A DNA stretch of 64,000 nt. Source: Sphingomonas caseinilytica. Lineage in GTDB: Bacteria; Pseudomonadota; Alphaproteobacteria; Sphingomonadales; Sphingomonadaceae. The translations under genes were made by a program, and so were the position numbers. Below the pieces are notes generated by a model. That model had not been told where the DNA came from. It worked only from the letters and a program-made list of their open reading frames with translations, and ran no database searches. The DNA lies in contig NZ_JAMGBA010000003.1 of the NCBI RefSeq assembly GCF_023516455.1, positions 124,001-188,000 of the forward strand, written 5' to 3'. Within the stretch, counting starts at the first letter, position 1. Each line of letters begins with the position of its first letter. Of this stretch, positions 8,637-17,647 are shown one piece after another.

Positions 8637-9206
8637 TTACTCCTTTCCGATTTCCAGCTTCGCGTCGATCCGGATCGCGCGGGCGAGGTTGTCGAAATTG
8701 GGTGAGGTCGCCTGCACTTCGGCATGGATTTCGGCGAACTGCTCGGGCGTTCCCTCGCCAGCGATCCGGACGACATATTCGATGCCCGGATAGCCTGGCG
8801 GCACCGTGTCGCTGAGCGCGAAGAAACCGCGCAGGTCGAGCGTGCCCTTGGTCTCGATTTCCAGCCGGTCGAGGCGGATTCCGCGCTTCGCCGCGCCGGC
8901 GACATAGCCGACCGTCATGCAGGCGTTGAGCGCCGCCATCAGCAGCTCCTGCGGGTTCGGCGCCTCGTTGCTGCCGAGGATTTCTTCCGGCTCGTCGGCC
9001 AGGATGACATGGTCGCGCGCGACCTTGTCGCCATTGCCCATGGTGATCGGGCCGGGGCGGCTTTCGCTTCGGAACTGGCCGGTCCACCGGGTGGTGACTT
9101 CGAAGCCGAGGTTCGGATTGACCGCGGCCTCCTCGACCAGTTCCGTCAGCTTGCCCAGGTCAATGTCGTTGATAATGGTCTTTTGAATGGGGCTTAACAT
9201 ATTCAT
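8637..9206 (-). CDS. OsmC-family protein with a single cysteine
   Basis: This 189-residue protein is last in the three-gene operon and starts 18 bp after the diiron gene. The OsmC/Ohr fold is recognisable from NPQELLMAALNACMTVGYVAGA (about 83-104), the RLEIETKGTLDLRGFFALS strand and the C-terminal helix. Classical OsmC/Ohr enzymes reduce organic peroxides with two Cys. Here only the Cys in ALNACMT remains; the region where the partner CP motif is expected reads SPNFDNLARA. A thiol peroxidase cycle therefore looks unlikely and another role, such as binding a hydrophobic ligand, is possible. Confidence 0.85.
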   Translation of the reverse strand: MNMLSPIQKTIINDIDLGKLTELVEEAAVNPNLGFEVTTRWTGQFRSESRPGPITMGNGDKVARDHVILADEPEEILGSNEAPNPQELLMAALNACMTVGYVAGAAKRGIRLDRLEIETKGTLDLRGFFALSDTVPPGYPGIEYVVRIAGEGTPEQFAEIHAEVQATSPNFDNLARAIRIDAKLEIGKE

Positions 9207-9224: not shown

Positions 9225-10139
9225 TCAGCAGAAGCTCGGCGCGATCGTGTCGATGCGCAGCAGCTGTGCCGGTGAGATCGCGCCGATCGTCTCGCGGAAC
9301 TTCGCGTGGCGAAGACCGGAGCCGAGGTAGGTGAAGCGGAGCGCGCGGCGCTGCTGCTCCAGCAGCTCGTTGCGTTCCTTCTCCGGGAGCCGGCGCTTCA
9401 TCTTGCGCTCCAGCGCCTCGAGGTTGAACTGCGCCTGCTGCTTGAGGCCAGTGTCGAGGAAGGCTCCGATTTCCAGGAACCCGTCGACGGCCTCCTTGAA
9501 CTGCTGCTGGCTCATGTCCTTGGCGATGTCGTGGACCATCAGCGTGTCGAGCTTCGCATGCTGCGCCTCTTCCATCCAATGGCAGCGGAGCAGGTTGACG
9601 AACGAGCCTTCCAGCCGCGTATCGCCGCGAACGCTGTCCACATAGTGACTCTGCGTCATCCACTCGATCATCAGGATGGTGATCGCGACGCTCATCGGAT
9701 TATGGGCCAGCACGACCTTGGCCACCGCATCGGGCGGGCCGATCATCTCGCACTCCTGGCCGAAGCCCTCGGTGAAGGTCTCCTGGAAGCGCTTGAACAG
9801 CTGGATGTGCTTCGCCTCTTCCGCGGCGAACTGCATCATCGCTCGAACGCGATGATCGTCCGCATCGGGCAAGCTCGGCCGGATATGGTCCATCAGGAAG
9901 GGGAGGATGAACTCCTCGACCAGCCCGAAGATGCTCAGATAGTCATGAGCCCGGATATGGTTGAGCGTCAGCTTCTCCTCATCGGACAGCATGTCGAGGC
10001 CTGCGGTCTGGGCGAGGCTTTCCGGCATGAACGGCCGCGTGAAGTCGAACTCCGCACCGGGGCTGATGACTTCGTCAATCTGCCACGCGGCGCGGTTCGA
10101 TGCGGCGAGGATCGCCGGATATTTGAAATCGTGAAACAT
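9225..10139 (-). CDS. Ferritin-like diiron protein (AurF-like)
   Basis: The gene encodes 304 residues from the ATG at 10139, which has AGGAG 12 bp upstream. Two EExxH iron motifs are visible, EEAKH at about residue 116 and EEAQH at about 190. Further acidic or His residues sit in the other two helices (LVEEFILPF, about 74; IEWMTQSHY, about 156), the layout of a ferritin-fold di-iron carboxylate site. Families with this layout include AurF-type N-oxygenases, and the protein is probably an oxidase or oxygenase. The natural substrate is unknown. It lies between the 36-aa membrane-protein gene and the OsmC gene and should be controlled by the divergent SARP-like regulator. Confidence 0.75.
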   Translation of the reverse strand: MFHDFKYPAILAASNRAAWQIDEVISPGAEFDFTRPFMPESLAQTAGLDMLSDEEKLTLNHIRAHDYLSIFGLVEEFILPFLMDHIRPSLPDADDHRVRAMMQFAAEEAKHIQLFKRFQETFTEGFGQECEMIGPPDAVAKVVLAHNPMSVAITILMIEWMTQSHYVDSVRGDTRLEGSFVNLLRCHWMEEAQHAKLDTLMVHDIAKDMSQQQFKEAVDGFLEIGAFLDTGLKQQAQFNLEALERKMKRRLPEKERNELLEQQRRALRFTYLGSGLRHAKFRETIGAISPAQLLRIDTIAPSFC

Positions 10140-10155
10140 CGTGGGGGTGAGCTCC

Positions 10156-10266
10156 TTACGCGGTGAGGACGGGCAAGAGCGCTGCCCCAAGCGACAGGCT
10201 TGCGAAGACTAGAGCCAGCGCGCCACCTGCGCAGGCCACTCCGCTTTCTTCCAACTTCGAAAACAT
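10156..10266 (-). CDS. 36-aa predicted membrane protein leading the diiron operon
   Basis: Reading the reverse strand from the ATG at 10266 gives a 36-residue protein ending TAA at 10156. A perfect AAGGAG ribosome site lies 7 bp upstream. After a short charged head (MFSKLEESG) the rest is one hydrophobic Ala/Gly/Leu helix long enough to span the membrane. The stop is 16 bp from the diiron start. Strong RBS, position and a clear membrane segment support a real gene. I recognise no family; it could anchor or regulate the diiron protein. Confidence 0.68.
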   Translation of the reverse strand: MFSKLEESGVACAGGALALVFASLSLGAALLPVLTA

Positions 10267-10326
10267 GTGTTGCTCCTTTTTCGTGGACGATTGGTTCGTC
10301 CGCTGAAGGCCTTCTGCCCGGCCATG

Positions 10327-10389
10327 GTTGGAGCAAGCGTTGGAAAAAGCGTTGGAAACGACTCTCTCAACCGCTTAGGGGCGTTTCCA
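10327..10389. promoter_or_regulatory. Tandem 12-bp direct repeats and inverted repeat, probable SARP operator
   Basis: GTTGGA occurs at 10327, 10339 and 10351 with an exact 12-bp period; the units are GTTGGAGCAAGC, GTTGGAAAAAGC and GTTGGAAACGAC. The last unit also forms an 8-bp inverted repeat with CGTTTCCA at 10382-10389. SARP-type winged-helix regulators bind tandem direct repeats of about this period. The site lies between the divergent operon (starting at 10266) and the SARP-like gene (10408). Confidence 0.62.
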
Positions 10390-10407
10390 CGTTTGCGGGG
10401 GTTGGCG

Positions 10408-11979
10408 ATGGAATTGCGCCTGCTTGGGCCGATGGCGGTGATCGATGACGGGAAGGCCCTGCCCCTCCCCGCCAGCCGCAAGACTCGCGCCCTGCTCGGC
10501 TATCTCGCCGCCGAAGGAAAGCCGGTCCGCCGCGACCGCCTCTGCCACCTGTTCTGGGAAATCCCCGACGATCCCAAGGGCGCGCTGCGCTGGAGCCTCA
10601 GCAAGCTTCGCGGCGTCGTCGGCGATGCGATCGTCGCCGACCGCGAAACGGTCGCGCTCGATCCGTCAAAGCTCGCCATCGACTTCTCCGACCTCACCGG
10701 CGCCGCCGCCGATTTCACCGCCGCTCCTACCGAACGGATGCAGTCCATCTGCGCCGCCGCCACCGGTTCGTTCATGGAGGAACTGGACCTCCCCAATTGC
10801 GACGATTTCAACGCCTGGCGCATCGCCGTCGCGGAAGACGCCCGCGTCGCGCTCGGCCGGCTCTGCGCTGAGCTCGTCACCCGCGACCTCCCGCCCGAGC
10901 AGCTGCTCCCCCACGTCCGCGCCTGGGTCGAACGCAGCCCCTACGATCCCGAACCGGCCGAATGCCTCTGCAACCTGCTCGTCGCCGCCGACCGCGAGGA
11001 GGAAGCTGAGCAGCAGCGCGCACTCGCTATCCGCCGCCTCGCCGACGCCGGCATCCCGGCCTCTGCAGCGCTTCGCGACAGCCCGGCCATCCCGCTATCG
11101 GCGGAGCCCGAAACTTCAGCCGAAGCCGCTGAACCAGCCGCCTCGCTGCGCCAGGAAATCCAGTTCTGCACGGCCAGCGACGGCACCAGCCTTGCCTATT
11201 CCGTCACCGGTGAAGGCCCGCCGCTCGTAAAGTCCGCCAACTGGCTCAACCATCTGGAACATGACCTGCACAGCCCGATCTGGAGCCACTGGATCAGGGC
11301 CCTGACCGCGATCCGATCCGTCTGGCGCTACGACGAACGCGGCAACGGCCTTTCCGACTGGCATGCGCCGCTGAACTTCGAAGCCTTCGTCGACGATCTC
11401 GAAAGCGTGGTTGACGCCGCCGGCCTCGACCGCTTCGACCTCCTCGGCATCAGCCAGGGCGCCGCCGTCGCCATCGCCTATGCCGTCCGCCATCCCGAGC
11501 GCGTGCGGAAAATGCACCTGTGGGGCGGCTACGCCCTCGGCTGGGCCCATCGCGGCGACCCGGCGGAGATCGAGCGGCGCGAGGCGATGCTCGACCTCAC
11601 CCGACACGGCTGGGCGCTCGACAACCCCGCCTACCGCCAGCTCTTCACCTCCCTCTACCTCCCCGAAGGCAGCCAGGAGCAGGAGGATTATTTCAACGAG
11701 ATGCAGCGCGTCACGACCTCAGCCGAAAACGCCGTCGCCCTCCAGCGCGTCTTCGCCGACATCGACGTCACCGGCCTGCTCGGAAAGGTCACCACCCCCA
11801 CCCTCGTCGGCCACTCAACCCGCGACGCCGTAGTCCCCTTCTCCACGGGTCGAGCCCTGGCCGCCAGGATCCCCGGCGCGAGGTTCATCGCCATCGAAAG
11901 CCCCAACCACCTGCTTCTGGAAAGTGATCCCGGCTGGCGAAAATATGCACGGATCGTCGAGGAGTTTCTGGAGAGTTGA
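10408..11979 (+). CDS. SARP-like winged-helix regulator fused to an alpha/beta hydrolase
   Basis: The 523-residue start at 10408 places the direct repeats outside the gene; an in-frame ATG upstream would make the repeats coding. Residues 1-90 (LRLLGPMAVIDDGKALPLPASRK...) are an OmpR-type winged helix, and about 95-215 a BTAD-like helical repeat region. After a Pro/Ala linker comes an alpha/beta hydrolase (about 255-520) with an intact-looking triad: nucleophile Ser in GISQGA, Asp in STRDAVVP and His in SPNHLLL. The hydrolase may be a ligand sensor that also cleaves its inducer. The probable targets are its own gene and the divergent diiron operon. Confidence 0.85.
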   Translation: MELRLLGPMAVIDDGKALPLPASRKTRALLGYLAAEGKPVRRDRLCHLFWEIPDDPKGALRWSLSKLRGVVGDAIVADRETVALDPSKLAIDFSDLTGAAADFTAAPTERMQSICAAATGSFMEELDLPNCDDFNAWRIAVAEDARVALGRLCAELVTRDLPPEQLLPHVRAWVERSPYDPEPAECLCNLLVAADREEEAEQQRALAIRRLADAGIPASAALRDSPAIPLSAEPETSAEAAEPAASLRQEIQFCTASDGTSLAYSVTGEGPPLVKSANWLNHLEHDLHSPIWSHWIRALTAIRSVWRYDERGNGLSDWHAPLNFEAFVDDLESVVDAAGLDRFDLLGISQGAAVAIAYAVRHPERVRKMHLWGGYALGWAHRGDPAEIERREAMLDLTRHGWALDNPAYRQLFTSLYLPEGSQEQEDYFNEMQRVTTSAENAVALQRVFADIDVTGLLGKVTTPTLVGHSTRDAVVPFSTGRALAARIPGARFIAIESPNHLLLESDPGWRKYARIVEEFLES

Positions 11980-13946: not shown

Positions 13947-14990
13947 CTAAAGTATCGCCAGATGCCGGTTATCGAAGCTCTGAGGGTTTTGCTCCGCGAT
14001 CGTCACCTTGCGCTCGATCGCGTCCAGGATCGGCTCGCTGAAATCGACGCCGGCCAGCCGTGAGCAGCTGCCCAAATTGCCGGGCGAGAAGACGTTCACC
14101 TCCAAAATCTTGTCGCCGACGATGTCGATGCCGACCAGGAACATGCCGTCCGCGACCAGCTTCGGGCGAATAAGCTCGGCGACGCGAAGCTCCGTCTCGC
14201 CGATCTCCACCGCCTCGGCCTTGCCGCCCGCGTGGATGTTGGATCGGATGTCGTCGGCCGACGCGACCCGGCGCAGCGCGGCATATTTGCCGCCGATCTG
14301 AAGCGGCTTTCCGTTCATCAGGAAGAAGCGGATGTCGCCCTTCTTCGCCGCCGGGACATAGGCCTGCGCGATGATGTAACCGTCGCGCCCGATCGCCTCG
14401 ATGATCTGGTTGAGATTGTCCTTGGACTTGGCGTCCAGCTTGAACACGCCCGAACCGCCCGATCCCTGCAACGGCTTCAGGATGATGTTGCCGCGATGCT
14501 CCTTGGCGAAGGCCTTGATGTCGGCCGCATGCTTGCTGATCAGCGTCTCGGCCCGCGCCTCGCTTGGAAAGCTCTGGAAATAAAGCTTGTTGATCGCCCG
14601 GCCGAGGCTGTCGGGATCGTTGAGGACGATCGTCCCGCGCTTCACCGCTTCCCGCCCGAACAGGATCCCTGCCTCCATCGCCCATGGCGTTTCCGCATCG
14701 ATCGACGGGTCGTTGCGCAGCATCAGCACGTCGATCTCGGCCATGTCGATCGGCTCGGCCTTGACCCGGGCGGACTTCAGCGTTTCGAAGAAATCTTCGC
14801 GATCCTTATATTTGCGCTTCGGCATACGCCGCGCATGGACCCATAGCGAGTCATCCGAACGCAGCGCGAAATCGCTCGGCGTCACATAGCAGACCTGGTG
14901 ACCACGAATGGCCGCCTGATGGGCCAGCACGGTGGTCGTATAGCCGGCATGTTCCCGCTCAAGGTCGTTGATGAAGAAAGCGATTTGCAA
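13947..14990 (-). CDS. Glutathione-synthetase-like ATP-grasp ligase
   Basis: The protein has 347 residues. The TTG start lies three bases after the stop of the upstream gene, so translation is probably coupled. The layout is that of GshB: NDPDSLGRAINKLY (124-137), the ATP-grasp loop LKPLQGSGGSG (171-181), lid region and metal-binding ILEVNVFSPG (295-304, Glu297 and Asn299). Such enzymes join a carboxylate to an amine with ATP through an acyl-phosphate. Real GshB is slightly shorter and is not found with these partners. The linked metallopeptidase suggests a peptide or protein tail as substrate, which is inference. Confidence 0.88.
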   Translation of the reverse strand: MQIAFFINDLEREHAGYTTTVLAHQAAIRGHQVCYVTPSDFALRSDDSLWVHARRMPKRKYKDREDFFETLKSARVKAEPIDMAEIDVLMLRNDPSIDAETPWAMEAGILFGREAVKRGTIVLNDPDSLGRAINKLYFQSFPSEARAETLISKHAADIKAFAKEHRGNIILKPLQGSGGSGVFKLDAKSKDNLNQIIEAIGRDGYIIAQAYVPAAKKGDIRFFLMNGKPLQIGGKYAALRRVASADDIRSNIHAGGKAEAVEIGETELRVAELIRPKLVADGMFLVGIDIVGDKILEVNVFSPGNLGSCSRLAGVDFSEPILDAIERKVTIAEQNPQSFDNRHLAIL

Positions 14991-14993
14991 GCG

Positions 14994-16856
14994 TCATGCT
15001 CCCGTCGTGATTGCCGCCAAACCCTTTGCGCCGCGCAGCGCCGCTACCCGTTCCTCGACGGCGTCATTGTCGAGGAACAAGGGAATGAACCGAGGCGCCT
15101 GAACGAGCCCGCGCTGCAACAGTTCCTCGATCGCCGGTACGTGCGCGACCGCGATCTTGCCCAGCCAGAAGGGCGCCAGCGAGGCGCCGCGCTCGACGAT
15201 TTCCATCACCGCCTTGAACCCCTGCAGATAGATGGCGTCCTTCGCGAGCCCGCCCGAACGGAACACCCGCGCGGCGATCCCGAACGCGCCCTGAGAGGAG
15301 AAACCATGATCGCGGTGAAGCAGCCGATGGGTATCGATGAAGGTTGCCCCCCGCTGCATCGCATCCACCGCGACCACCCGCCCCGCCAGCAGGCGCAGCC
15401 GCGTCCGCGTCAGGCCCCCGCTCGCCCACTCCGCGAACACGCCAAGGCCTTCCTGCACCCCCTCATATCCGGCGAGCCCCGACCGGAAGATGGTGAGGCC
15501 CTGTGTCTTGCCGTTGAAATAGGTCAGCAGATGGACGCCGACTTCATGCGCCAGAAGCGCGTCCAGCCGCCGCCGCGGCATCACCGTATCGGCGCCGATG
15601 AGCAGCTTCCGCCCCGACACCAGCAGGCCCGCGACATCCTCCCGGACCTGCACGTCCGGCGTGAAATCGGGATGCTGTTCACGGTATCGCGCCGCCAGCT
15701 CCCCGGCCGCCTCGGCAATCTCCGGCGCGTTGACGGTGGGGCCGCGCGGCGGATCCTTTGCCGACGATCCCAATATGGCCTTTGCATCCGCCAACAGCGG
15801 ATCGTCGACCATCCCGTAAAGGAACATGGACGCGGGCCGGAAGGCGGGCGTGTTGCGGGTCGCCAGCATCGTCAGCTGCGCATCCAGCTCATGCCTTTTC
15901 TCGCCCAGCAACCGCTCCAGCAACGGATCCTCCAGCGCCCGGAAATCGATCGCGTACAGCTCGCGCTTGGCAAGGTCGGGATCGACCGTCAGCGGCCGAT
16001 AATGGAAGTGCGGCGGTTGCTGCTCATGGCCCGCCGCGAACCGGGCATAGGCCTTGGCCGTGTCGATCGGGGAGATGGACAGCAGGAAGTCGAAGCTCCG
16101 CGCCACCCGGTCCAGCTTCTTGTCGGCCTTCAGCGCCGCAGCGAGATAGGCGCTCCGACCCAGCGAGCGGTAATGCTTCGGAACCTCGGTCTTGCCGTCA
16201 TCCATGAAGGCGCAGGCCGCGCGGAGCAGGGAATCGCCGATCCCCACCGATATGTCGTGGGCGATCGCCGGATACTCCCCGCCCTCCTTGCGCCGGTGGA
16301 TCTGCGGCACGCGCAGCGACATACGCTCGACGCCCTCGATGCGATTCAGAAGCTTGTTGAACGGACCGGGAAGCAAAGCTTCGAACGGCACCCGTTCGAC
16401 CTTGCAGTCGCGAAGGTCGATCTCGATGTCGCGCAGATCCTCCTCCAGCGCCGCGGCCGCCCTTCCGACATCGCCCTCGTCCCCCGCGCCGACCTGGGCG
16501 ACGAACGGCGGCAGCTCCTGGGACCCTTCGCGATGAAACTCGACCGGCTGGTCGGCCAGGGTGACCACCAGCAGCCGCCCTTCCCGTTCGACCGCGGCCG
16601 ATGCCACCGCCTCCAGTGCCGACAGTGCAACCGCATCGTCGCCGGGCGACCACAGCAGATAGGCCGGGCTGTCGACCGCGATCCGCCGCGCCAGGCTGGT
16701 TTCCGGATCGTCCGTCCGGTGCAGGATCAGGAACGGCAGCCAGCGGTCCAGGTGCACCCGCCCACTCTCGCCGACAGCCTGCCGAAGCGCACCCGTGCTC
16801 GCATATTCCGGCTTGAACCCCGGCGGCGCCTCCTTGAGGTCGGGCAGCGCGCTCAT
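14994..16856 (-). CDS. DUF1704/QEGLA-motif protein, HExxxH metallopeptidase-like
   Basis: This 620-residue protein belongs to the family annotated as flavohemoglobin expression-modulating QEGLA motif protein. Its metal site is plain: AHEVGVH (HExxxH, 437-442), then GVQEGLG with Glu469 as likely third ligand; the name motif reads QEGLG here. To my knowledge DUF1704 also forms the catalytic domain of the animal tubulin detyrosinase MATCAP, a carboxypeptidase with HExxxH. The N-terminal 270 residues resemble an N-formylglutamate-amidohydrolase-like region (PVEFHREGSQELP...). The ATG overlaps the upstream stop by four bases. No flavohemoglobin gene is nearby. Confidence 0.87.
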   Translation of the reverse strand: MSALPDLKEAPPGFKPEYASTGALRQAVGESGRVHLDRWLPFLILHRTDDPETSLARRIAVDSPAYLLWSPGDDAVALSALEAVASAAVEREGRLLVVTLADQPVEFHREGSQELPPFVAQVGAGDEGDVGRAAAALEEDLRDIEIDLRDCKVERVPFEALLPGPFNKLLNRIEGVERMSLRVPQIHRRKEGGEYPAIAHDISVGIGDSLLRAACAFMDDGKTEVPKHYRSLGRSAYLAAALKADKKLDRVARSFDFLLSISPIDTAKAYARFAAGHEQQPPHFHYRPLTVDPDLAKRELYAIDFRALEDPLLERLLGEKRHELDAQLTMLATRNTPAFRPASMFLYGMVDDPLLADAKAILGSSAKDPPRGPTVNAPEIAEAAGELAARYREQHPDFTPDVQVREDVAGLLVSGRKLLIGADTVMPRRRLDALLAHEVGVHLLTYFNGKTQGLTIFRSGLAGYEGVQEGLGVFAEWASGGLTRTRLRLLAGRVVAVDAMQRGATFIDTHRLLHRDHGFSSQGAFGIAARVFRSGGLAKDAIYLQGFKAVMEIVERGASLAPFWLGKIAVAHVPAIEELLQRGLVQAPRFIPLFLDNDAVEERVAALRGAKGLAAITTGA

Positions 16857-17647
16857 CCCAGCAGGCCTCGCGCCTTGTCGGCGGTAAAAGCGATGAACCG
16901 CCGCATCGCCTCAAGCTCCGCCGGATCGGGCTCGCCGCTCCACTCGTCCATGAAGAATTTCTTGAATTCCAGCGCGATCGCGCAGCCGCGCCCGGGGTAT
17001 CGTTCGTGCACGAACCGCGTTTGCTCGCCCTTGCCCTGGAAGGCGATATTCTCGCGGACGTCGAGCGTCCGGCCGTTGAAGTCGAACCCGGCCATCGCCT
17101 CCATCAGCGGATCGAGCAGGAACGCCCACTCCTCGCGCGGCATCGAAAATGTGCCGATATTGATATCGGGCGCATCTTTCGGCGGCGTCGCTTCGGTGTC
17201 TGGCCCGTCGCGGCGATGGTTGTAGCTGTGCACATCGATCAGCACGAAGCGCCCATGCGTCGACGCGACATCGTCCAGCAGGCCCGCGAGCATCCGGTAG
17301 TAAGCGGCGTGGATCGCCAGCGACCGGTCGGCAAGACCCGCGGGAAGCGGCTGGTGCCATACCTCAAGGCCCCAACTCTGCTCCGCCGTTTCATAAACGG
17401 CCTCGACCGGGCCGCGATTAAGGTCGAATTCGAACCGCGACCGGTGGACGACGACATGGGTCGGCACATCCAGGATTGCCTGCCCCGTGAACGGATCCTC
17501 TTCGCGAAGCCGCTCGGCATCGCTTAGGCTCATCGCCGCCGCGACTTCGGGCCGAAGCCCGTGCCCGTCGTGGATCGCTGTCGCCACGATCGGCCCGCCG
17601 CCACGCTGCACCGTCCACCACGGGCCAAGGTCGCTATGCTCGCTCAT
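16853..17647 (-). CDS. N-formylglutamate amidohydrolase-family protein
   Basis: This 264-residue protein is first in the three-gene unit. FGase-family metal motifs are visible: HDGHG at about 26 and IDVHSYNHRRD at about 132, plus RSRFEFDLNRG at about 69. The family is best known from histidine breakdown (HutG), but no hut gene is near. Here it is locked by a 4-bp overlap to the metallopeptidase-like gene. It may remove an N-terminal acyl or acylglutamyl group in the same pathway; the exact substrate is open. No ribosome site or promoter stands out in the 107-bp gap upstream. Confidence 0.86.
   Translation of the reverse strand: MSEHSDLGPWWTVQRGGGPIVATAIHDGHGLRPEVAAAMSLSDAERLREEDPFTGQAILDVPTHVVVHRSRFEFDLNRGPVEAVYETAEQSWGLEVWHQPLPAGLADRSLAIHAAYYRMLAGLLDDVASTHGRFVLIDVHSYNHRRDGPDTEATPPKDAPDINIGTFSMPREEWAFLLDPLMEAMAGFDFNGRTLDVRENIAFQGKGEQTRFVHERYPGRGCAIALEFKKFFMDEWSGEPDPAELEAMRRFIAFTADKARGLLG

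Follow-up and report, generated by a model that had tools for sequence, protein, structure and literature searches.

The nearest tested precedent for the genes discussed here is the RimK–RimB pair, a writer and eraser of polyglutamate that combines an ATP-grasp ligase with a retropepsin-like protease and for which a hybrid RimB-RimK enzyme exists (PMC11957791). A further point of reference is provided by the human tubulin metallocarboxypeptidases MATCAP and TMCP (KIAA0895L, KIAA0895), which take off tyrosine, glutamate and polyglutamate from protein tails and are defined by an HExxxH motif plus a third metal ligand in an EEG-type motif (PMC10499314). We compare with these systems three genes from a 64,000-nucleotide stretch (hereafter the window) of Sphingomonas caseinilytica contig NZ_JAMGBA010000003.1, which encode an FGase-family hydrolase, a MATCAP-fold protein, and a GshB-like ATP-grasp ligase. 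The three genes are conserved as a module in at least two phyla of bacteria, and we tentatively propose, with somewhat less than even confidence, that their products work in the cytosol as a unit editing the C-terminus of a peptide or protein. This proposal fits because one ligase and two carboxypeptidase-like hydrolases have been kept together across phyla. Bacteria as a rule lack the tails of α/β-tubulin. Like RimK–RimB, the trio joins an ATP-grasp ligase to a peptidase, and its FGase–MATCAP fusions recall the hybrid enzyme; it differs in having a ligase of the GshB subfamily and a metallocarboxypeptidase-like eraser. The bacterial protein differs from its human relatives in carrying an additional pseudo-FGase domain and in being operonic with a ligase.

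The three genes are packed on the minus strand in the order FGase-family hydrolase, PF08014 protein, ligase. The first gene of the operon (16853–17647) encodes an FGase-family (PF05013) metallohydrolase with its motif residues present, and its stop shares a 4-bp ATGA, read from the sequence, with the start of the PF08014 gene (16853–16856). The second gene (14994–16856) encodes a 620-residue TIGR02421/PF08014 protein, modeled by AlphaFold2 (AF2) with a predicted local distance difference test score (pLDDT) of 88.7, in which a degenerate FGase-like domain (residues 29–223; 16188–16772) precedes a MATCAP-fold catalytic domain (residues 258–620; 14997–16085). The catalytic domain contains HEVGVH (residues 437–442; 15531–15548), a predicted metal-binding and catalytic motif, and QEGL (residues 468–471; 15444–15455), in which E469 aligns with the third-ligand glutamate (EEG) of human TMCP1. 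The ligase (13947–14990) is assigned by Pfam and NCBIfam to the NF009110 subfamily and starts with a TTG three bases past the PF08014 stop (gap 14991–14993), a start that is supported because window residue 1 aligns with the ATG starts of homologues. The gene trio, the overlap, the TTG start, and both motifs had all been read from the sequence in the initial annotation, and the coordinates bear them out; profile searches place the proteins in PF05013, PF08014/TIGR02421, and PF02955/NF009110. No obvious signal peptide is present in the three window proteins, as judged by eye, no predictor having been run.

Conservation was assessed by reading wide flanks for 53 hand-chosen loci (20 + 20 stretches, two Sphingobacterium loci, and 11 plasmid records), of which 24 come from the 53 PF08014 places in genomes of the window's phylum (Pseudomonadota). 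L057 (no phmmer match) and L085 (a broken trio) stand outside all tallies, L075 was excluded from A7 but kept in the tree, and L088 is a later addition. Three architectures encode the trio. Where MATCAP is fused to a pseudo-FGase domain (type A, window excluded), a same-strand ligase lies within 5 kb in 24 of 25 loci and an FGase gene in 22 of 25, the exceptions being L046, which lacks both partners, and L052 and L066, which lack the FGase. Where an FGase is itself fused to MATCAP (type B), the ligase is present in eight of nine loci (absent from L086), and where three separate genes include a short MATCAP (type C), both partners are present in 3/3. The linkage also holds in an unselected subset consisting of all 12 PF08014 genomes among 198 Bacteroidota, 11 of which have a ligase nearby. 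In L061 and L062, both from Bacteroidota, two different ATP-grasp ligases flank the FGase and MATCAP genes in one direction. No same-strand trio partner was found within 5 kb of the short MATCAP forms of about 430 residues (solo430, 0/11) or about 390 residues (solo390, 0/3); in L077, a ligase-like gene lies at a distance of 4.9 kb, on the opposite strand. The solo430 profile matches human MATCAP more distantly (E 1.6e-4), and a rapidly built tree of 52 catalytic domains places the pseudo-FGase form in one group (99, starred) and the 430-residue form in another (100, starred), the fused form not being resolved as a single group (2 changes). PF08014 itself is sparsely distributed: it occurs in 47/398 genomes of the window's phylum and 12/198 Bacteroidota, and in 9/385 genomes of the window's class and 3/60 of its order, with the window's own genome counted in both of the latter. 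The plasmid pSymB of the plant symbiont Sinorhizobium meliloti bears the trio, and a Phyllobacterium plasmid has a decaying version (L085:3-3292) in which the FGase and ligase genes are each broken into two pieces. A phage or viral origin was considered and rejected; the viral matches consist of one phage record (50% of the query, 26.7% identity) and one partial IMG/VR match (L089).

The MATCAP assignment rests on several lines of evidence. The 14994–16856 protein scores 283.8 bits against PF08014 and, at 342.9 bits, exceeds the curated cut-off of TIGR02421 (QEGLA; 338.65). H437, E438, H442, and E469 are invariant in 26/26, and alignment to the human enzyme pairs HEVGVH with HEIGTH and the QEGL region with EEGLA, so that the protein shows the catalytic fold, the HExxxH motif, and the third metal-ligand glutamate in an EEG-type motif that characterize MATCAP/TMCP. 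A direct phmmer search of PDB sequences with the window MATCAP protein gave no match at E up to 1; the A1 profile, used instead of the single sequence, did reach MATCAP among them. Profile alignment to human MATCAP and fold comparison thus place the HExxxH site within a MATCAP fold, as had been anticipated. The domain is probably a gluzincin (HExxxH + E), for which carboxypeptidase activity is predicted.

The ligase is related to glutathione synthetase yet distinct from the canonical enzyme. It scores 176.3 bits against PF02955 and 437.1 bits against NF009110 (PRK12458; cut-off 408), and a Pfam search with a threshold of E ≤ 0.001 matched GSH-S_ATP, RimK, GSH-S_N, and YheCD but not the tubulin tyrosine ligase (TTL) domain. 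It shares the ATP-grasp fold of bacterial GshB (142.1 bits to E. coli GshB, 1gsa) but, with 211.8 bits (211.4 in the genome scan), falls below the cut-off of the GshB equivalog TIGR01380 (299.05); a canonical GshB with 391.8 bits is encoded elsewhere in the window's genome (G000:C1:819190-820119), and the ligase is therefore not that genome's ordinary glutathione synthetase. The RimK models are likewise missed (TIGR00768, 74.4 vs 143.4 bits; NF007764, 44.4 vs 331). NF009110 exceeds its cut-off in 14 of 398 genomes of the window's phylum, at 16 places, 15 of which adjoin a MATCAP gene; the 16th (G166) starts too close to a contig end, at a distance of 48 bases, to be assessed. The NF009110 subfamily is tied to MATCAP, and its database name, "glutathione synthetase," can mislead.

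The FGase-family protein scores 84.7 bits against PF05013, and its score and fold place it in the FGase superfamily. Unlike N-formylglutamate amidohydrolase (PF05013; PDB 2q7s, 2odf), it fails the curated HutG N-formylglutamate deformylase model TIGR02017 (19.3 bits vs a cut-off of 278.75), which leaves the earlier suggestion that the FGase trims an acyl group weak. The relatives of this fold include N-formylglutamate amidohydrolase and poly-gamma-glutamate hydrolases, and the fold is also carboxypeptidase-like; for the latter reason, removal of a C-terminal residue by the FGase is at least as likely as acyl trimming. In searches of PDB sequences, phmmer with the window FGase returned nothing at E up to 1 and the A3 profile only chance-level matches.

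The N-terminal ~225 residues of the PF08014 protein constitute a separate, degenerate FGase-like domain that the initial annotation overlooked. Thirteen motif residues, each invariant in 26/26 FGases, were recounted in 26 N-terminal domains in a single alignment. H26, R46, D75, N77, R78, and H140 are retained in none (tryptophan replaces H140 in 15), R71 and K230 in one each, E49 in two, E50 and D138 in five (glutamate replaces D138 in 18), E227 in six, and D51 in 14; the loss of H26 depends on the alignment, as a histidine lies within three columns of it in 9/26 rows, the window's among them. Because most FGase motif residues are lost, the N-terminal domain looks dead. The eight fused FGase–MATCAP proteins (A2) mostly retain these residues. 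The fused protein of L086 has a tyrosine at H140, and a fused form at L039:4745-8980 has lost several motif residues and lies close to a gene for a RimK-family ligase, which is on the opposite strand.

If these proteins act together, the ligase would spend ATP on activating a C-terminal carboxylate, to which it would attach an amino acid; the MATCAP domain would take off C-terminal residues one by one, and the FGase, with its carboxypeptidase-resembling fold, would take off a further, probably acidic residue. For the residue that is edited, glutamate is our likeliest guess. The pseudo-FGase domain is probably noncatalytic and may serve as a scaffold or as the heterodimer partner of the active FGase.

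We did not identify a fourth gene common to the locus types when open reading frames (ORFs) of ≥80 residues were clustered across 52 loci and the window. Genes of one cluster lie directly upstream of the ligase in five Bacteroidota loci, and the two members identified are SDF (sodium:dicarboxylate) symporters; the shared flanks of these loci suggest few independent events. A DUF413 cluster occurs in three loci (L042, L045, and L086), identified by Pfam in L042 and by record annotation in L086. An EcfG-type general-stress promoter was considered by searching for a consensus in 12 stretches of 300 bases 5′ of the FGase gene, one from the window, seven from plasmids, and four from loci that share the window's class or order. 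Matches in two of the 12 (L059 and L081), with none in the window, exceed the background of ~0.025 per stretch (nine records) yet are not general, and the candidate was dropped. Evidence for regulation comes from Photobacterium damselae, in which A0J47_RS17020 ("GshB," discussed there as glutathione synthetase) and A0J47_RS17025 (a QEGLA protein) are 38.42- and 27.51-fold up in 1% relative to 3% NaCl (PMC10308900). These consecutive tags probably denote the ligase and fused FGase–MATCAP of one operon, given that those genes overlap in Photobacterium sp. DA100 (L088). Two genes with adjacent tags in Vibrio vulnificus (VV2_1203/VV2_1204), one of COG3930 and the other a "glutathione synthetase," are both clade 2-specific (PMC3091676).

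Almost as probable as the editing of protein ends is a small-molecule pathway, mainly on two grounds: the relatives of GshB work on small molecules, and the P. damselae genes respond to salt. In such a pathway, the ligase would build a glutathione-like or oligo-glutamyl peptide (an osmolyte, redox, or cofactor-like compound) whose precursors the hydrolases trim or which they recycle, with no protein modified. We regard this as a realistic possibility, also short of even, given a GshB-family ligase with a GSH-S N-terminal domain, the 38.4- and 27.5-fold low-salt rise of the P. damselae genes, the FGase fold relatives acting on formylglutamate and poly-gamma-glutamate, and the SDF-family gene adjoining five Bacteroidota loci; however, the human relatives of MATCAP have protein tails as their substrates, and no other recurrent biosynthetic gene accompanies the trio in the loci read. 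In four trio genomes (G065, G095, G150, G170), a GCS2 ligase is present, canonical GshB is absent, and the trio ligase, the best GshB-like gene, might still make glutathione.

Those four, among 15 trio genomes of the window's phylum, together with the NF009110 name, are what would favor a second glutathione synthetase whose partner hydrolases degrade glutathione or its conjugates. We consider this unlikely: canonical GshB is found in 11 of 27 trio genomes, all 11 among the 15 of the window's phylum (the window's included), whereas it is found in 0/12 Bacteroidota trio genomes, 10 of which have neither PF04262 nor PF04107. An ordinary glutathione synthetase is similarly disfavored by the TIGR01380 score and the separate GshB in 11/15, the four genomes excepted and GshF and eukaryote-type synthetases unsearched. 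Slightly less probable still is synthesis on a LysW-like protective carrier, with the ligase loading a building block and the metallocarboxypeptidase freeing the product; an ATP-grasp ligase beside a metallopeptidase is the layout of LysX/LysK, but the ligase scores 35.3 bits against a LysX cut-off of 275.6, and no recurrent carrier or modifying enzyme appears among the clustered ORFs of ≥80 residues, which a smaller carrier would escape.

Other genes of the window include an AurF-like (PF11583) protein (9225–10190, minus strand) adjoining an OsmC-like protein (8637–9206, minus strand), and a 570-residue protein (10267–11979, plus strand) with an α/β hydrolase C-terminal half (Pfam) and an N-terminal half that, by eye only, resembles a SARP/BTAD-type regulator. 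The segment 18628–22116 (plus strand) contains an ECF-type sigma factor gene, then a gene for a YfbK-type von Willebrand domain protein and, as its last ORF, a proline-rich protein of 339 residues with no Pfam match.

Iyer et al. in 2009 reportedly surveyed and predicted operons of ATP-grasp ligases with unrelated peptidases, and the trio may be among them. Among the matches listed in open full-text literature, the trio is undescribed. In public records, the MATCAP gene is labeled "flavohemoglobin expression-modulating QEGLA motif protein" and its neighbors "N-formylglutamate amidohydrolase" and either "glutathione synthetase" or "glutathione synthase," so that, as far as we have seen, the parts of the trio are annotated yet unexplained. 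The interpretation offered in the initial annotation, a ligase and carboxypeptidase adding and removing a residue, is partly supported: it keeps its conserved linkage, its MATCAP fold, and a ligase other than the genome's ordinary glutathione synthetase and loses force in the acyl trimming assigned to the FGase. An extended version of C-terminal editing strikes us as rather improbable: an osmotically responsive bacterial tail-editing cycle built from relatives of the tubulin-tail machinery, with an ATP-grasp writer, a MATCAP eraser, a second, carboxypeptidase-fold eraser, and a dead copy of the latter fused to MATCAP, from whose bacterial stock the animal and alveolate MATCAP/TMCP proteins would have descended. 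If the trio does edit peptide or protein ends, bacteria would have an equivalent of the tubulin-tail enzymes, and MATCAP's original role would become testable in simple organisms; the existence of both fused and unfused forms and the strong induction at low salt provide handles for finding the substrate.
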